From Cloacibacillus evryensis DSM 19522 (GTDB lineage: Bacteria; Synergistota; Synergistia; Synergistales; Synergistaceae): a stretch of 64,000 nucleotides of DNA. A model generated the notes under the pieces. That model was given only the letters and a program-made list of their open reading frames with translations, made no database searches and had not been told where the DNA came from. Position numbers and translations under genes: made by a program. Below, in pieces: positions 54,405-61,883 of this stretch. The first letter of the stretch is position 1. Every line of letters begins with the position of its first letter. The stretch lies in NCBI RefSeq assembly GCF_000585335.1, contig NZ_KK073872.1, forward strand, positions 2,223,283 through 2,287,282, in the 5' to 3' direction.

Positions 54405-57161
54405 TTACATCGCTCCTTTCACCGCGGTACGCAGGGCCCCGCCGCGCTGGAGGCCGTTCACGATGAGGCTTTCAATCGTGCCCTTGTTGCCTTGCAGCAT
54501 TTTCACAAAGCTTTGCGCATCTACCGCCTGAATCGTTATGCTGTAGTTATCACCAGCAGCGCCGCTGGACGCCCCGCCCTGCGAAGCGTTCTTAGGCACA
54601 ACAACTTCTCCGCGCTGAAGTATCGCCGGCACTTCGTCCGAGCGAAGCCCCGCGATGCCGCCGCCGTGCATTCGCGGCGCGTTGGCAAATACGGAGGGAC
54701 TTACCAGCGTCGGTGTGCCGCCGGCGCCTACAGTGCCGCCGCTGTGGAATTTCAGCCCCAGCATCCCAAAAAATCCGCCGCCGGAGCCGAAGAATCCGCC
54801 GGCCACGCCGCCGCCAAAAAGCGCCCGCATTATCATTGCTTTGGCGATCACCGCGCCGAGGTCCTGCAGGAGATCCAACATCGCTTCGCCGAGCGATTCG
54901 GTGCTGCGGATGGCGCTCTCAAACGCGTTGCCGATGCTCGCGGGCACGGCGTCGAGCCCCTCGCGCGCGCTGTCCCACGCCGCCGTTGCCTGCTGCGCGG
55001 CCGTTGGAAATTTATTCATGCTGTTTTCGTAGGCCTTGAGTGCGTCGTCGGCCAGCTTGATTACGATCGGCATATCCGCAAATTGTGTTTTCAGCTGCTC
55101 AATGGCGGCTTTATACTGCGTGCCGCTGATTTTACCGCTCTCAAACCGGTTTTTCAGCAAATCAAGCGATTTTGTAAATTCGCTACTGCCCGCGCTTTGC
55201 AAATCGCTGAAAGCCTTCTGCAACTCCGGCGGCCATTGCAAAAAGTTTTCGATGCTGCCGCCCGTCGCCTTGAATTGATCAGAGAGGTCAGCAAAGCGTT
55301 CTTTGAGTTTGCCGATATAGTCCGTGTCGCTCATGAGTCCTTGCGCATTTTGCCAACCATAGTTGCTGTATTCTTCCTCGCGCAGCCGCTTGGATTGCTC
55401 TTCGAGTGATTTCATGCGTTCGATCTGCTGCTTGTTTCGCTCTAACACATTTGCGGCCGAGAACGGATTTCGCTGTTCCGCGTCTTCCGTGATTTGCAGC
55501 TGGAGGTCACGGATTTTTTTCCAGTCCTCCGATAGAGGTTTTGATTTTGCAAGCCATTTATCAAGGATCGGCAAAAACGATTCCCCATCAGCATTGAGGT
55601 ATTTTATTTGATCTGAGATACCTTGCACGAGCGTTTCAGCCGCTGTTTTGCCCTTCGCGCCCTTTTTTGCTTTGCCGCCAGAAAATCCGCTATCGCTGCC
55701 GAGCGAACCAGCGAACAGGCTTTTCCAATCTGTGTTGCCGGAGAGATCGAGCGCGGTTTTTGCAAGCTGATTTTTAGCTCTTACAATCGCTTCCGTTATG
55801 CTCTTTGGGCGTCCCTTGCCGTTCTTGTAATCTTCCATCGCGGCTTGCTGATCGGCCTTTTCCTGCGCGGAGAGGGTTTTCTTTGCCGCCGGCGCCGGCT
55901 TTTCTGTCCCAGCGTCACCAAGTGCCGATGTTCTTAGCTGCGCCGTCTGGGCAATGGCTTCTGTGAGCTTCTCGAGCTTTTTTATCACAAAACCCACAAT
56001 ATCTACTATTTTTTCACATACGCCCTTGATAGTTTCCCATGCGGCGGTAAAAGCCTCAACGACCGCATCCCAGAGGTCTGTGAAAAAGCCGCCCATGCTG
56101 TCCCAGTTTTCGTATATAACCGCGGCCACCACGCCGCAAGCGGCGCCGATGGCAAGCAGCGGCCACGTTGCCGCGATCGTCGCCGCCGCCCAAGCTACAA
56201 ACGCGGGCACTACCAAGCCGGCAACGGTAGCCGCTATCACAACAAGGGCTTCGCGCACACTGTCGGGCACAAGCTGTTCAAAGGCTTCGCGCACGCCACT
56301 CGTTTTTATTATCTGCGCAAACGCCGTAAGCCACGATGTCACGCTGTACAGCCGTTCTTTCAAGTCGAAAGCCCGCGTTATTTCCTCTCCCACACCGCGC
56401 ATGATGCTCGATATCGCATCCTTCATGTTGCTTAACTGCTGCGGTATCTCTTTCGCTACAGCATCCATCATGCCGCCGAAACGCTTCTGCATACCGCCAA
56501 AAATCCCCTCAAGCGCGACTTGCGCGGAGATGGCGCCTTTTTTGGTCTTGTCCATCACATCAGCTACGCTGGTGCCCATGCTTTCAGCGAGCATCTTCCA
56601 CGCCGGCACGCCGGTTTCAGATATTTGGCGCATTTCTTCGGCTGATAGTTTGCCCTTCGCGGCAATCTGTCCGAAGGCGAGAGTCAGGCGGTCCACGCCC
56701 TCTTGGCTCAGACCAACGGCCATCGCGGCATCGCCGACCGTCTGCAGGATGGGTATCACAGCCTGCGCCTCGAATCCGTATGCCTGCAAACGCTTCGAGG
56801 CGTCTACAAGCCCCGAAAATTCAAATGGGGTTGTCGCGGCAAAACGTTCAAGGTCATTCAAGTGCGCCTGTGCTTCTTTTGCGCTGCCGGTCAGCACGGT
56901 CATGCTGCGCTTCACCATTTCAAAATCAGCCGCCATCTTTAGCGAGGCCGCACCGAGCGTGCCCATGCCGAGCGCCACCCATTTCAATTTTGATGCCAGG
57001 CTTGATGATAGCTTCATGGCGTCTTTGCCGAGCGCGACGTCAAAATTTTTCTTAATAGATTTTGAAAAAGCCGTAACCCGTGAAGTGAGGCTGCCCAGCT
57101 GGCGGGCCGCCTCCGTCACGTCGGCGGTAACTTTTATCTGCATTTTATTTGAGCTTGCCAT
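54405..57161 (-). CDS. Tail tape measure protein
   Basis: 918 aa. An N-terminal coiled region (TEAARQLGSLTSRVTAFSKS) is followed by the conserved TMP segment (TPFEFSGLVDASKRLQAYGF, in part), a hydrophobic stretch (about 310-350, LVVIAATVAGLVVPAFVAW), more coiled coil, and the C-terminal GGIAGLRSDEVPAILQRGE motif. It sets tail length; at roughly 1.5 angstrom per residue this predicts a tail near 140 nm, a family rule of thumb only. Confidence 0.94.
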   Translation of the reverse strand: MASSNKMQIKVTADVTEAARQLGSLTSRVTAFSKSIKKNFDVALGKDAMKLSSSLASKLKWVALGMGTLGAASLKMAADFEMVKRSMTVLTGSAKEAQAHLNDLERFAATTPFEFSGLVDASKRLQAYGFEAQAVIPILQTVGDAAMAVGLSQEGVDRLTLAFGQIAAKGKLSAEEMRQISETGVPAWKMLAESMGTSVADVMDKTKKGAISAQVALEGIFGGMQKRFGGMMDAVAKEIPQQLSNMKDAISSIMRGVGEEITRAFDLKERLYSVTSWLTAFAQIIKTSGVREAFEQLVPDSVREALVVIAATVAGLVVPAFVAWAAATIAATWPLLAIGAACGVVAAVIYENWDSMGGFFTDLWDAVVEAFTAAWETIKGVCEKIVDIVGFVIKKLEKLTEAIAQTAQLRTSALGDAGTEKPAPAAKKTLSAQEKADQQAAMEDYKNGKGRPKSITEAIVRAKNQLAKTALDLSGNTDWKSLFAGSLGSDSGFSGGKAKKGAKGKTAAETLVQGISDQIKYLNADGESFLPILDKWLAKSKPLSEDWKKIRDLQLQITEDAEQRNPFSAANVLERNKQQIERMKSLEEQSKRLREEEYSNYGWQNAQGLMSDTDYIGKLKERFADLSDQFKATGGSIENFLQWPPELQKAFSDLQSAGSSEFTKSLDLLKNRFESGKISGTQYKAAIEQLKTQFADMPIVIKLADDALKAYENSMNKFPTAAQQATAAWDSAREGLDAVPASIGNAFESAIRSTESLGEAMLDLLQDLGAVIAKAMIMRALFGGGVAGGFFGSGGGFFGMLGLKFHSGGTVGAGGTPTLVSPSVFANAPRMHGGGIAGLRSDEVPAILQRGEVVVPKNASQGGASSGAAGDNYSITIQAVDAQSFVKMLQGNKGTIESLIVNGLQRGGALRTAVKGAM

Positions 57162-57426
57162 GTGTACCGCCCCTTATCTTTGCGAGTTGCTGCGTTTTAT
57201 ACTCTGTTTCCTCGATAATGCGCACACCATCCCACACGCCGCAAAGCTCATCAAGCGTGTGATGCTGCTTGCTGTTCTGCCAGATCGCGGCGTAGGCCGC
57301 GGCGATCGCCGCCTCCCGCCTGCGAAGATATGCGTTATAGTTATACGCAATTATTTTGTCTGTGAGTTGGCCGTGTGTAATGTGCCATAAATCTTCATGG
57401 CTCAAGCCAAGAGGGCCCAGAGCCAT
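57145..57426 (-). CDS. Tail assembly chaperone, T part (read mainly as the GT fusion)
   Basis: 93 aa from an ATG at 57426 (MALGPLGLSHEDL). In phages this ORF is normally made by a -1 frameshift from the preceding G ORF, giving GT, which binds the tape measure. The -1 frame runs without a stop from the slippery site to this ATG and beyond. It overlaps the tape measure start by 17 bases. Confidence 0.8.
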   Translation of the reverse strand: MALGPLGLSHEDLWHITHGQLTDKIIAYNYNAYLRRREAAIAAAYAAIWQNSKQHHTLDELCGVWDGVRIIEETEYKTQQLAKIRGGTHGKLK

Positions 57427-57433
57427 GAGATAT

Positions 57434-57474
57434 AGCGACCGCCTATCCTCTAGACGGTCGCTGCCGCGTTTTTT
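57434..57474 (-). promoter_or_regulatory. Programmed -1 frameshift site joining G and T
   Basis: Heptamer A AAA AAC in the zero frame (57468-57474), a five-base spacer and a perfect 8-bp stem AGCGACCG/CGGTCGCT (57434-57462). Slippage gives AEKKRGSDRLEDRRSLYLMA into the T ORF. Confidence 0.88.
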
Positions 57475-57815
57475 TCTGCTTCTTCCTCTTCGGCCTTAAC
57501 AGCCTCGGGAAAAATCGTAACCATTGAGCCTGATAGCTCCTCGATCGCCGCCGCGATCACCTTCATATATTCGCCGCCCGCCTGCTCCAGGATGTCGCCG
57601 GCATCTTCCAATGTGATGTTGCGCCGGCGGCTTTTTAGGCCCGCCCACAAAAGGGCGCGCGTGAAGCGAAAGCTCGAGAGCCGTTTCTCCGGTTGCTTCG
57701 AGAGCGAGACCATTATCTCGGGGATGCTTTCGCCCGTTTGGTCTTCAAGCGCGCAAAGAGCGTTCTGCCCATATTCGAGAATATACTTCCGGCTGTTGAT
57801 TTCTACCTCACGCAT
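57450..57815 (-). CDS. Tail assembly chaperone, G part
   Basis: 121 aa from 57815 (MREVEINSRKYILEYG), two bases after the tail tube stop; longer in-frame starts overlap the tube gene. It has the helical body typical of this group (ALCALEDQTGES, FRFTRALLWAGLKSRR) and an acidic C-terminus (AEEEEAEKNAAATV) that covers the frameshift site. It acts during tail assembly and is not in the virion, by analogy with lambda. Confidence 0.82.
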   Translation of the reverse strand: MREVEINSRKYILEYGQNALCALEDQTGESIPEIMVSLSKQPEKRLSSFRFTRALLWAGLKSRRRNITLEDAGDILEQAGGEYMKVIAAAIEELSGSMVTIFPEAVKAEEEEAEKNAAATV

Positions 57816-57817
57816 GG

Positions 57818-58243
57818 TTACGCCCCCGCCTGCGCCGTATGATCCAGATCGCCGCCAGCAACCCACGAAACCGCCACTTCTACACGCGAATCGTTGGATG
57901 AGCTGATTTTCCAGCCGGTGATATATACCGGGGCTTTTATCTGCGATTTTCCGGAGCCGGTGCCCTCGAGGCGCACGAACAAATATACAAGCGCCTGTGA
58001 TTTTTGCGCCGTTTCCAGCATGTCCAGAGTTTCGCTCTCCGGGTCCAAAATAACGGTAAAAGATCCCTTGGCGTCTCCCTGTCCCGGTATATACTGTTTG
58101 TTTGAGTCATATATCCCAGTGACGTCGACCTCGGAGCAGCTGAGATCTATGTCCCATGCGGCCAGTGCTTCAACGGTCGTCGGCGATCCTACTTCTGTCG
58201 CCGAAACCATCACCAGCGCGTTTTTTGCAAGCTGTCTTGCCAT
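57818..58243 (-). CDS. Major tail tube protein
   Basis: 141 aa, beta-rich. Contains the tube-type core (ALAAWDIDLSCSEVDVTGIY, KGSFTVILDPESETLDML, VYITGWKISSSND). It follows the tail terminator gene and precedes the chaperones, the usual place. It has no C-terminal Ig domain itself. Confidence 0.87.
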   Translation of the reverse strand: MARQLAKNALVMVSATEVGSPTTVEALAAWDIDLSCSEVDVTGIYDSNKQYIPGQGDAKGSFTVILDPESETLDMLETAQKSQALVYLFVRLEGTGSGKSQIKAPVYITGWKISSSNDSRVEVAVSWVAGGDLDHTAQAGA

Positions 58244-59037: not shown

Positions 59038-59355
59038 TCAAGCCTCCTGGATGCAGTCGAGTTCCACCTGTGCAGCCCGATAATCCGGGCGCACCGCCTT
59101 CACGGTAAGCGATTTGCCGCGCCATGCTATCACGTCGCCTTTTTGCGGCTCGGTTTTCGGCAGCCGCATTATCACGAGGTGCGTTCTTACTTCGATATCG
59201 CGGCCGCCGAGAAGTCCGTCTTTCGATTTTTTGGCAGTGACGGCAGCCCAGCCGGAGAAAATTGTCGTGTCCCGCGTTGTGCTGCCGCCCATGCCGTCGT
59301 CTTCAAAAACCGCCCGCGTGATCGTTATCTGCTCGCTTAGGCTTCCGGGATTCAC
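59038..59355 (-). CDS. Head-tail adaptor (phage stopper, SPP1 gp16/HK97 family)
   Basis: 105 aa. Starts NPGSLSEQITITRAVFEDDGMGG, has WAAVTAKKS and VIMRLPKTEPQKGD strands, typical of PF05521-like stoppers that close the head exit. It overlaps the connector gene by four bases. Confidence 0.88.
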   Translation of the reverse strand: MNPGSLSEQITITRAVFEDDGMGGSTTRDTTIFSGWAAVTAKKSKDGLLGGRDIEVRTHLVIMRLPKTEPQKGDVIAWRGKSLTVKAVRPDYRAAQVELDCIQEA

Positions 59356-59684
59356 AGGTAATCACCGCACGTTTCGATGTGTGTTAGAATCGCGTCTACT
59401 GTGTAGCTGATCTTATTGATGGTCTTGTTGCCCACAGTTTCAACAACCCGATTTTCATACCAGTGCGCAACGAGCAGCTTTACGGCGTGCTTATAGAGTT
59501 CATCACTGGCGATATCTTCATACGTCGGTTCTCCGCTCTCGTCTTTCGTGACATGCCGGGTCTTAGATATCTTGCCGCCAATAAAGGACTGCGCCGCGGA
59601 TATCTGGGCCGTTAAAAGCGCGTCCTCCGCGTCGTTGTCAACGCGGAGGAACGCCTTAACTTCTGCCAGCGTCAGCGCTGGCAT
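59352..59684 (-). CDS. Head-tail connector (HK97 gp6-like)
   Basis: 110 aa, helical. The LTLAEVKAFLRVDNDAEDALL start and the AVKLLVAHWYENRV helix are hallmarks of gp6-type connectors that dock on the portal. It starts at the stop of the X2-domain ORF. Confidence 0.9.
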   Translation of the reverse strand: MPALTLAEVKAFLRVDNDAEDALLTAQISAAQSFIGGKISKTRHVTKDESGEPTYEDIASDELYKHAVKLLVAHWYENRVVETVGNKTINKISYTVDAILTHIETCGDYL

Positions 59685-59946
59685 TAGCTGCCTACCGTCA
59701 CCTTTACGGTCGCCGTCAATCCGTCGGCCGTCTCGACCGTAAAGGTTTTTTCTCCGTTGGCCAGCGTTGCAAGATAATCGTCAGTTATCGTCAGCGTGCC
59801 GTCCAATACGGTGTAATTGTCCGAATTTACTGCCGTTCCCCCAATCTTGAGCGCAGATACAGAAGCCGATGCGCTCACCGTCAGCGCCACGTCAGCGGGG
59901 GCTGATTTGCTGAACGTGGCCGTCGCCGGGCTGACGGTTAGGAAGA
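59684..59946 (-). CDS. X2/Ig-like domain, expressed as a -1 frameshift extension of the capsid
   Basis: The -1 frame entered at 59947 reads IFLTVSPATATFSKSAPADV, then ALTVSASASVSALKIGGTAV, and on through DYLATLANGEKTFTV to VTVGS and stop. This is a complete X2 (CBM-X2/Ig-like) domain of 87 residues. The only start within it is GTG at 59890, without a ribosome site, and it would lose the first strand. Ig-like domains attached to phage capsids or tails are known and often bind cell or mucus polysaccharides. That use here is inference. Confidence 0.78.
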
Positions 59947-59953
59947 TTTTTTT
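59878..59953 (-). promoter_or_regulatory. Programmed -1 frameshift site at the end of the capsid gene
   Basis: Slippery A AAA AAA in the zero frame (59947-59953), three codons before the capsid stop. A nine-base spacer containing the stop, and a long-range perfect 8-bp stem CCGTCAGC/GCTGACGG (59930-59937 with 59878-59885), follow. Confidence 0.78.
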
Positions 59954-61185
59954 AGGTATGCAAACGCCTTTGTGGTGCGGACCTTGCCGTCCAGGATGGC
60001 GTAGCCCATGTACGTGGTTGTTCGTTTGGTCATGTGCTCGTCCTGCATCAGGCTTATATCTTCCTGTACGTTCATCAAGTACCCCTGCCCGACATTGGCC
60101 AGCAGCATCGCGTTGGCGGGAATAGCATCCTCTTCGTATACCACGTGGCCAAAGAGTCTTCCGACGCCACCAGACATCACGTCAGCAATAAAATACGGAC
60201 GTCCGTTGCTGTCCTTGATGTTCGCCAGCGTATTCCAGATAAAATCGTTCTTCGCGTAGATTGCCGCGCCGGTGGAATAGCCGCTCCGGATCTTCGACAT
60301 CAGAGAGGTCATTTTTATATATGTGACCTCATCCGTTGTCGGCGTCCAGGTGATCACCTGCGGCGTGCTGGCCTCCGCGTCAAGCGCCGTGATGATGCCC
60401 TGCGGCTGGCTCTTCCAGTTGTCACTTGCGCCGGCCGCGCCCTTGCCCAAAACCACCGCGGCCGCAAGCGCGTTGGCCATCTTTTCGGCCACCAGGCTCG
60501 CGACATAAGCCAAGAAGGAATCAATGCTCATCTTCTGTAGCTTCCAGGATATCTTCAGCGCCTTGGCGAGTTCATACCCGTCGAGGTCGAGCGCCGCGAT
60601 GGTGAAGCTGCCCTCCGTCACCTCGGTATCTTCGTCGTAGAACGCCGCATTGTCGCCGCTCACAGTTTCATAGGGATAGCTCAGCTTACCTTTTACAAAT
60701 GTTTTTGGCACGGCATTCAGGATCGGGTGCAGCTCGCCCATTTCTTTCCAGATGGCATCTACCAACGTTTTAGGGATCACAACTGTGTGCGTCGCCGCCG
60801 TCTGTGTCGCGTTCTGGATATCTGGCGCAAGACTGCGATTCACCTTGTCAAAGATTTCGGCCTCTTCCGCCGGCAGACGGAAGCCCATCAACGTGTGTGC
60901 GAACGCCTCGCGATATATGGCATCTTCATCCAGCACATCCTGCGTTTTTGCCGCCGGCGTTAAGCTCTGTGGCGCGTTGTCGCGCGGGATTGTTATGTCG
61001 ATCATCTTGCGCTCTTTTAGTGCGGCAAGGTTCGCGAGTTCACGCTGCTCGGCGTCAAAGCTCGCGTCCAGGTTCTCTATCTCCGTGCGCTTTGCGGCCG
61101 CAGCCTCAACATCGCCGGAGTGTACCGCGTCGGTCGCGGCGGTCATCAATTCGTTTCGCTTGTTTCTGTATTCTTCTACAGTCAT
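59938..61185 (-). CDS. HK97-type major capsid protein
   Basis: An N-terminal delta/scaffold domain (about 1-100, coiled, rich in Glu, Ala and Arg) is probably removed by the upstream protease; the HK97 fold follows (QTAATHTVVIPKTLVD, the KLSYPYETVSGD E-loop region, and GGVGRLFGHVVYEEDAIPA). The start at 61185 (MTVEEYRNK) is preferred because GAGGG lies nine bases upstream; an ATG three codons earlier overlaps that site and the protease stop. About 415 aa. A frameshift at its end can add the X2 domain. Confidence 0.92.
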   Translation of the reverse strand: MTVEEYRNKRNELMTAATDAVHSGDVEAAAAKRTEIENLDASFDAEQRELANLAALKERKMIDITIPRDNAPQSLTPAAKTQDVLDEDAIYREAFAHTLMGFRLPAEEAEIFDKVNRSLAPDIQNATQTAATHTVVIPKTLVDAIWKEMGELHPILNAVPKTFVKGKLSYPYETVSGDNAAFYDEDTEVTEGSFTIAALDLDGYELAKALKISWKLQKMSIDSFLAYVASLVAEKMANALAAAVVLGKGAAGASDNWKSQPQGIITALDAEASTPQVITWTPTTDEVTYIKMTSLMSKIRSGYSTGAAIYAKNDFIWNTLANIKDSNGRPYFIADVMSGGVGRLFGHVVYEEDAIPANAMLLANVGQGYLMNVQEDISLMQDEHMTKRTTTYMGYAILDGKVRTTKAFAYLKKSS

Positions 61186-61190
61186 TGGTA

Positions 61191-61883
61191 TCATCCCTCT
61201 TTCTTGAGATCCAGCAGCTTCAAACGTTCACGCTCGAGCGCGAGAGCTGCTATTTTTTTTATCGCCTCCGGAGCCGATTTCGGAAGCTCCTTTATCGCTA
61301 TCGCCGCAGGCTCGGCTATCGCCTCGGCAACCTCTACGCAGAAATAGCGGGCAGCCTCTTCCGCGGTAAACCAGGTTTCTTTGTACATGAGATCCTTAAT
61401 CGCATCGATACTCGCATCCGGGAGCAGCGCGCCCTCATATACGCTCAACATGCTCTCTTCGGCTTTCTCGAGTATCTCCGCGCACAACTTCATTTCGTTA
61501 GCATTGCCGCTGGCGCTCATCGTGGTTCTGTGTATCATCAAAAACGTATTGCGCGGCATAATTACACGGTCGCAGCAGAGCGCGATCGCGGAGGCGGACG
61601 ACGCGGCGAGCCCGTCGATATAGCAAGTCTTTTTACCATTGTGCTGCCTGAGCATGTTCACGATGGCCATGGCTGCGATGACGTTGCCCCCGCCGGAATT
61701 GATGTGTAGGTTCAAATTCTTGTCAGAGACGCCGGCAAGAAAATTACGTATCTTTTCCGGGTACTGATCGGCGGCATCCCACGCGCCCCACCACGAGGAG
61801 ACGATTTCGCCATAAAAATAAAGCGCAGCCTCGCCGTTTGCGAGATTGCGCACTTGGAGCAGTTTGTTTAGGTTGTCCTTCAT
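61191..61883 (-). CDS. ClpP-like prohead protease
   Basis: 230 aa, S14 ClpP fold. The oxyanion region is NLHINSGGGNV, the catalytic Ser is in DGLAASSASAIA and the His in MIHRTT. It cuts the capsid scaffold domain and perhaps itself during head maturation. It overlaps the portal end (four bases) and touches the capsid start. Confidence 0.92.
   Translation of the reverse strand: MKDNLNKLLQVRNLANGEAALYFYGEIVSSWWGAWDAADQYPEKIRNFLAGVSDKNLNLHINSGGGNVIAAMAIVNMLRQHNGKKTCYIDGLAASSASAIALCCDRVIMPRNTFLMIHRTTMSASGNANEMKLCAEILEKAEESMLSVYEGALLPDASIDAIKDLMYKETWFTAEEAARYFCVEVAEAIAEPAAIAIKELPKSAPEAIKKIAALALERERLKLLDLKKEG

Follow-up and report, generated by a model that had tools for sequence, protein, structure and literature searches.

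Immunoglobulin-like (Ig-like) capsid domains added by frameshifting are established in phages T3 and A2, and capsid genes with a frameshift are further known from A118/A500 and PSA (PMC5009743), which agrees with the statement of an earlier sequence-only reading of the present locus that such additions are known in phage structural proteins. In T3 (gene 10A/10B) and Lactobacillus phage A2 (major head protein), a -1 frameshift near the capsid stop adds the domain, as we propose here; the T3 shift is given in the annotation of its record, and we verified the A2 frame directly. The systems differ in the domain and in the sequence of the site. The T3 and A2 extensions match Big_2 (E 4e-10 and 5e-7), whereas the extension in the window, i.e., the whole stretch of 64,000 nucleotides of Cloacibacillus evryensis DSM 19522 that was analysed, is an X2 domain, and the capsid genes end in CTC CCA AAG (T3), ACC CCA AAA (A2) and CTA AAA AAA (window). 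BLASTP comparisons of the T3 and A2 capsids with the window capsid revealed no convincing similarity.

Two other systems are close in part. A -1 frameshift is likewise reported at the coat protein gene of Listeria phages A118/A500 (PMC5009743), but the -1 frame past the A500 capsid encodes a HeH/LEM domain (E 1.7e-13) rather than X2, and this domain is nearer to the helical extensions of four relatives of the window capsid (L016, L017, L018, L024). In phage SPP1, gp17.1* is also a virion protein in which frameshifting adds an Ig-fold to a fraction of the subunits, although it is a tail tube protein, the fold is FN3 and the shift is +1 (PMC8718954, PMC9022992).

The capsid gene and its slip site

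The head genes of the prophage lie on the minus strand of the window and encode a terminase, a portal, a ClpP-like head protease, an HK97-type capsid and head-tail connectors, together with tail genes. The host genome consists of one 3.49-Mb contig, and the same capsid is found in IMG/VR on a contig of 39.6 kb. The 0-frame product of the capsid gene (59938..61194, minus strand) has 418 residues and matches the Phage_capsid profile (PF05065, E 1.9e-33) and the major head protein family phrog_10 (E 4.3e-56). With the ClpP-type protease, portal and terminase upstream and a head-tail connector downstream, these matches identify it as a major capsid protein of the HK97 fold.

The capsid gene ends, on the minus strand, in CTA AAA AAA TCT TCC TAA, so that the A_AAA_AAA heptamer (59947..59953, minus strand; codons CTA AAA AAA) is indeed framed for -1 slippage, as first read. 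The heptamer follows the X_XXY_YYZ pattern in the 0 frame, stands two codons before the stop TAA (59938..59940, minus strand) and is conserved; it is the only A-run of this type in the gene. From its last A, the -1 frame reads I F L T V S P A T A T F S K... and continues for 87 residues that hold one CBM_X2 domain (59684..59947, minus strand, including the stop codon TAA at 59686-59684).

For comparison, we examined capsid relatives in 188 genomes of the same phylum, at 20 loci of one genome collection and at 43 loci of viral contigs, a set of genomes and metagenomes in which capsid identity falls as low as 38%. Within the phylum, a close capsid occurs in four genomes, the host included, and all four have the arrangement. 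The heptamer, the 0-frame stop, the X2 domain in the -1 frame and the hairpin described below recur in related phages and are therefore no product of chance. Wherever an in-frame NNA AAA AAR lies near the capsid end, it is accompanied by an open -1 extension of 84-261 residues (24 of 24 distinct junctions). The heptamer is always A AAA AAA except for one A AAA AAG (L018), and the 0-frame stop follows it by one to three codons. Where the heptamer is missing, the -1 frame of the capsid gene stays open for no more than 22 residues. We rejected three apparent exceptions (L028, L070, L071) as extensions: their frame belongs to the gene that follows, whose own ATG overlaps or adjoins the stop. Homologues in which X2 had its own start and ribosome site and in which the A-run was not conserved would have spoken against frameshifting, as the sequence-only reading pointed out; we found the opposite. 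On the capsid tree, the X2 label requires two changes and the helical label one, but near-copies inflate this clustering, and the tree thus shows only that the trait is inherited.

The next gene, encoding the head-tail connector (Phage_connect_1, PF05135, E 9e-15; 59352..59684, minus strand), begins in many members on the stop codon of the -1 extension or no more than a few bases away from it, often without a clear ribosome site. In the window, the X2-frame stop and the connector ATG overlap in TAATG (59682-59686), and connector translation may therefore be coupled to the shifted frame. Ribosomes that have shifted might then also feed the connector gene, which would couple connector dosage to frameshifting.

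An X2 domain in the -1 frame

The extension matches CBM_X2 (PF03442) over profile positions 1-83 of 83 (E 3.4e-12), with a score of 46.7 bits against a curated cut-off of 28.9. This HMM search, which had been suggested together with the claim of a complete X2-type domain, bears that claim out. The extension is also related in sequence to 1EHX, a scaffoldin X2 module of known structure (E 7e-4). AlphaFold models it as an Ig-like sandwich (pLDDT 95.5) with strands at residues 4-6 and 9-13, and a fold search with this model retrieved parts of trimodular GH5 cellulases (TM 0.82). The predicted sandwich in the -1 frame of a capsid gene falls in the class of Ig-like virion domains added by frameshift, of the type reportedly described by Fraser et al. 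2006. It is the sole X2 detected in the host genome. Pfam searches up to E 1 found no match to Big_2 (PF02368), and the extension had no hit of any kind in PHROGs. A tblastn search against annotated phages gave no match to the X2 extension, so the arrangement is absent from the annotated phage records searched.

The content of the extensions varies. A single X2 is found in the window, in L005, L006, L007, L011, L036/L037 and L062, and in the L015/L040 group, where it is preceded by a Gly/Ser-rich linker that fits a displayed domain. Two copies are found in L031 and L032, and three in L003, L012, L038 and L039. In the four remaining loci (L016 5227-5520, L017 5227-5520, L018 2377-2628, L024 3089-3382) the extension is an unrelated domain, without Pfam family and predicted with modest confidence to be helical; a fold search with that of L016 gave no reliable match. 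That one shift site can carry either X2, in one to three copies, or a helical domain points to a general port for capsid display.

By profile and fold, the domain belongs to the same family as the X2 of cellulosomal scaffoldins (PF03442, 1EHX), which sits in secreted cellulosome proteins, whereas here X2 would be carried by phage virion proteins. One study reports that scaffoldin X2 promotes the attachment of cells to cellulose in vivo, and that cellulosome X2 by itself does not bind cellulose or the cell wall (PMC9022034). The latter report makes an adhesive role uncertain. The family name CBM_X2 does not prove carbohydrate or surface binding, and such binding is putative here.

A review of the Ig-like superfamilies of phages does not name X2 (PMC9022992), and our searches of the open-access literature found nothing on CBM_X2 with capsid, nor on the X2 domain with phage, carbohydrate and Ig-like. 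This is in keeping with the earlier suggestion that the capsid-X2 pairing is perhaps undescribed. What appears to be undescribed is the choice of an X2 domain, the RNA element with its conservation and the exchange of domains, but the novelty is modest because T3, A2 and other phages already provide cases of Ig-like capsid domains gained by frameshifting (PMC5009743). The locus adds a probable frameshift system on a major capsid gene, well supported by comparison, in phages of little-studied bacteria and in metagenomes.

The RNA hairpin and its in-frame controls

Folding and covariation delimit a bulged hairpin of 20 bp past the heptamer (59877..59938, minus strand). Stem 1 has 9 bp (59938-59930 with 59885-59877) and begins 8 nt past the heptamer, within the distance of about 5-9 nt expected of a stimulator; it is followed by a 5' bulge of 9 nt (59929-59921), a stem 2 of 7 bp (59920-59914 with 59892-59886) and a stem 3 of 4 bp (59912-59909 with 59896-59893). 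The minimum free energy of the hairpin is -34.5 kcal/mol (z -4.26), and none of 200 shuffled sequences was equally stable. The 8-bp stem at nine-base spacing that was noticed from the sequence is real, but it is part of this larger hairpin, whose first stem has 9 bp at 8 nt.

We compared the region from the heptamer to +75 in eight homologues that align gap-free. RNAalifold agrees with the structure above, i.e., a 9-bp stem, a 9-nt 5' bulge and about 11 more pairs. The pairing is kept in 96.3% of the cells (100% in the outer stem), and eight pairs show two-sided compensatory changes. The covariation of the hairpin is 0.448, compared with 0.197 in shuffled alignments (0/500 as high) and at most 0.098 when the register is slid. 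Under a null that keeps the protein and the codon make-up, 154 of 160 pairs were observed against a mean of 114.6 (p<=0.0005); coding alone thus favours pairing somewhat, without explaining the 154. The strong tests are those of fixed register and covariation. A search for the best stem anywhere in each sequence reached only weak significance, with p about 0.01-0.15 for most sequences and 0.6 for the L015/L041 group.

Other junctions have structures of their own. In the three-X2 group, as in L036/L037 and L016/L017/L024, a stem of 10-11 bp lies 5-6 nt past the heptamer and encloses 40-61 nt; the stem of L018 has 7 bp. A covariance model trained on the eight homologues matches the three-X2 group weakly (E 0.002-0.004). 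In the L015/L040/L041/L080 group there is no stem at the conserved position, and a strong hairpin lies further down instead. No Rfam family scored above threshold at the shift site. We also considered an upstream Shine-Dalgarno stimulator (AAGG in some sequences) and rejected it: it is not conserved because the Lys codon varies between AAG and AAA.

Homologous X2 domains that lie in frame provide natural controls for the determinants of the stimulator. The tail-tube protein ends in an in-frame X2 in L012 (7912), L032 (7284), L033 (7312), L038 (7942) and L062 (6620); Pfam confirms those of L012, L033 and L062, and that of L038 falls just under the cut-off. The tail-tube protein of the window itself (57818-58243) has no X2. 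At the positions of the hairpin, the in-frame tail copies form 4-5 of the 9 outer pairs and the further X2 copies within extensions 3-6 of 9, which is no more than chance. By contrast, 9 of 9 pairs form at each of the eight capsid -1 junctions and at one tail -1 junction. The latter, in a genome of the host family (G009, locus L102 1310-2010, minus strand), was found with the RNA model only (E 1.8e-12): X2 lies in the -1 frame behind a tail-tube gene, the hairpin forms 20 of 20 pairs at the same distance, and the shift position reads TCT TTT instead of A_AAA_AAA. We left the nine-row alignment that includes this tail case out of the counts because the aligner placed gaps at the slip site. Since pairing is at chance where X2 is in frame and complete where it is out of frame, the hairpin tracks the frame break and not the domain; no other observation argues as strongly for its being a frameshift stimulator.

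As the hairpin follows the frame break rather than the domain, we tentatively suggest that the stimulator is carried by the codons for the first X2 strands and that X2 could thus be a portable cassette with its own -1 signal, which lands out of frame behind a capsid or tail-tube gene, allows display in limited copy number and loses the signal when in frame. We regard this as a possibility somewhat short of an even chance.

Alternative explanations and a proposed mechanism

The fusion could also be encoded at the level of the mRNA, if RNA polymerase slipped on the A7 run and left an altered number of A's in some transcripts. The run is present and the resulting protein would be identical. Seven A's are short for efficient transcriptional slippage. 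The A AAA AAG of L018, in which the run is broken to A6G, favours ribosomal over transcriptional slippage, and a hairpin kept at a fixed distance with compensatory changes, at out-of-frame junctions only, is what one expects of ribosomal shifting. We consider transcriptional slippage very improbable.

Alternatively, X2 could be made as a small protein of its own, begun at an internal GTG or by ribosomes that re-initiate past the capsid stop. The capsid stop is near, and the window extension, which has no ATG, has in-frame GTG codons at positions 20 and 24. A product begun at either codon would be missing the predicted strands at residues 4-6 and 9-13, which open the domain and precede the earliest GTG, in line with the claim that no independent start could include the first strand. 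The initial count of a single internal GTG without a ribosome site was too low, as there are two: the first indeed lacks a Shine-Dalgarno sequence, and the second has a 3-nt match before it. Six relatives have no ATG, GTG or TTG within the first 45 codons of the extension, and an internal start would leave unexplained both the covarying hairpin and a heptamer that is kept exactly with the extension. A separate protein is thus very improbable. The dN/dS of the extension (about 0.05-0.35 in eight pairs) reveals purifying selection, which indicates that the frame is used as protein. Finally, it is scarcely credible that the frame break is a recent mutation or a sequencing error in what is truly an in-frame fusion or a dead remnant: A7 runs are error-prone and one lies at the slip site, but the homologues refute this reading, because the same break, heptamer and stop one to three codons on recur down to 38% capsid identity and the extension is under purifying selection.

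The conserved heptamer and -1 frame, the covarying hairpin, the lack of suitable starts and the purifying selection all support the initial proposal, and a programmed -1 ribosomal frameshift very probably makes the capsid-X2 fusion. Most ribosomes would end at the TAA and release the 418-residue capsid protein. A fraction of them, which the 20-bp bulged hairpin would hold up at the mRNA entrance, would slip back one base, with the two lysyl-tRNAs slipping in tandem on A_AAA_AAA, and so bypass the stop. The shifted product would gain the 87-residue X2 (Ig-like) domain and reach about 503 residues, with a junction spanning FAYLKK-IFLTVSPATATF. If T3/T7 gp10B and A2 are a guide, the fusion may make up a subset of the shell subunits, as in the minority of subunits with a binding domain that the sequence-only reading envisaged, with X2 on the outside, where it would probably provide weak adhesion to glycans of the cell surface or of the environment. 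We extrapolate the outward display and the weak adhesion from T3/T7 and from prevailing ideas about Ig-like domains in phages (PMC5009743, PMC9022992), and on balance think it likely that X2 is displayed on the virion and adhesive. Gene callers that ignore frameshifts miss the fusion.

Further capsid genes in our comparison, among the apparent exceptions to the rule of the heptamer, have shift-like sites of other kinds. In phage PLE2 (L084 3170-3300), the capsid gene ends in GGC CCA AAA GTG TAG and is followed by a 21-residue -1 extension and a CCCCGC/GCGGGG stem; L086 has the same stem, an extension of the same length and the end GCC CCA AAA GCC TAG. This is an A2-like shift site that would give a short product. 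In phage phiEG37K (L088 2885-3100), a HeH/LEM-like domain lies in the -1 frame behind the capsid, with a CCCCTA-CTTCGT-TAGGGG hairpin past the stop, a probable unannotated frameshift.

The window holds a further candidate among its tail genes, at 57145-57866 on the minus strand. A tail chaperone-like pair is formed by a gene at 57866-57450, with a weak match to the GTA-gp10 chaperone family, and a -1 frame at 57495-57145, and GAA AAA AAC (A_AAA_AAC) lies near the end of the first gene; this is probably a -1 frameshift of the lambda G/GT type.
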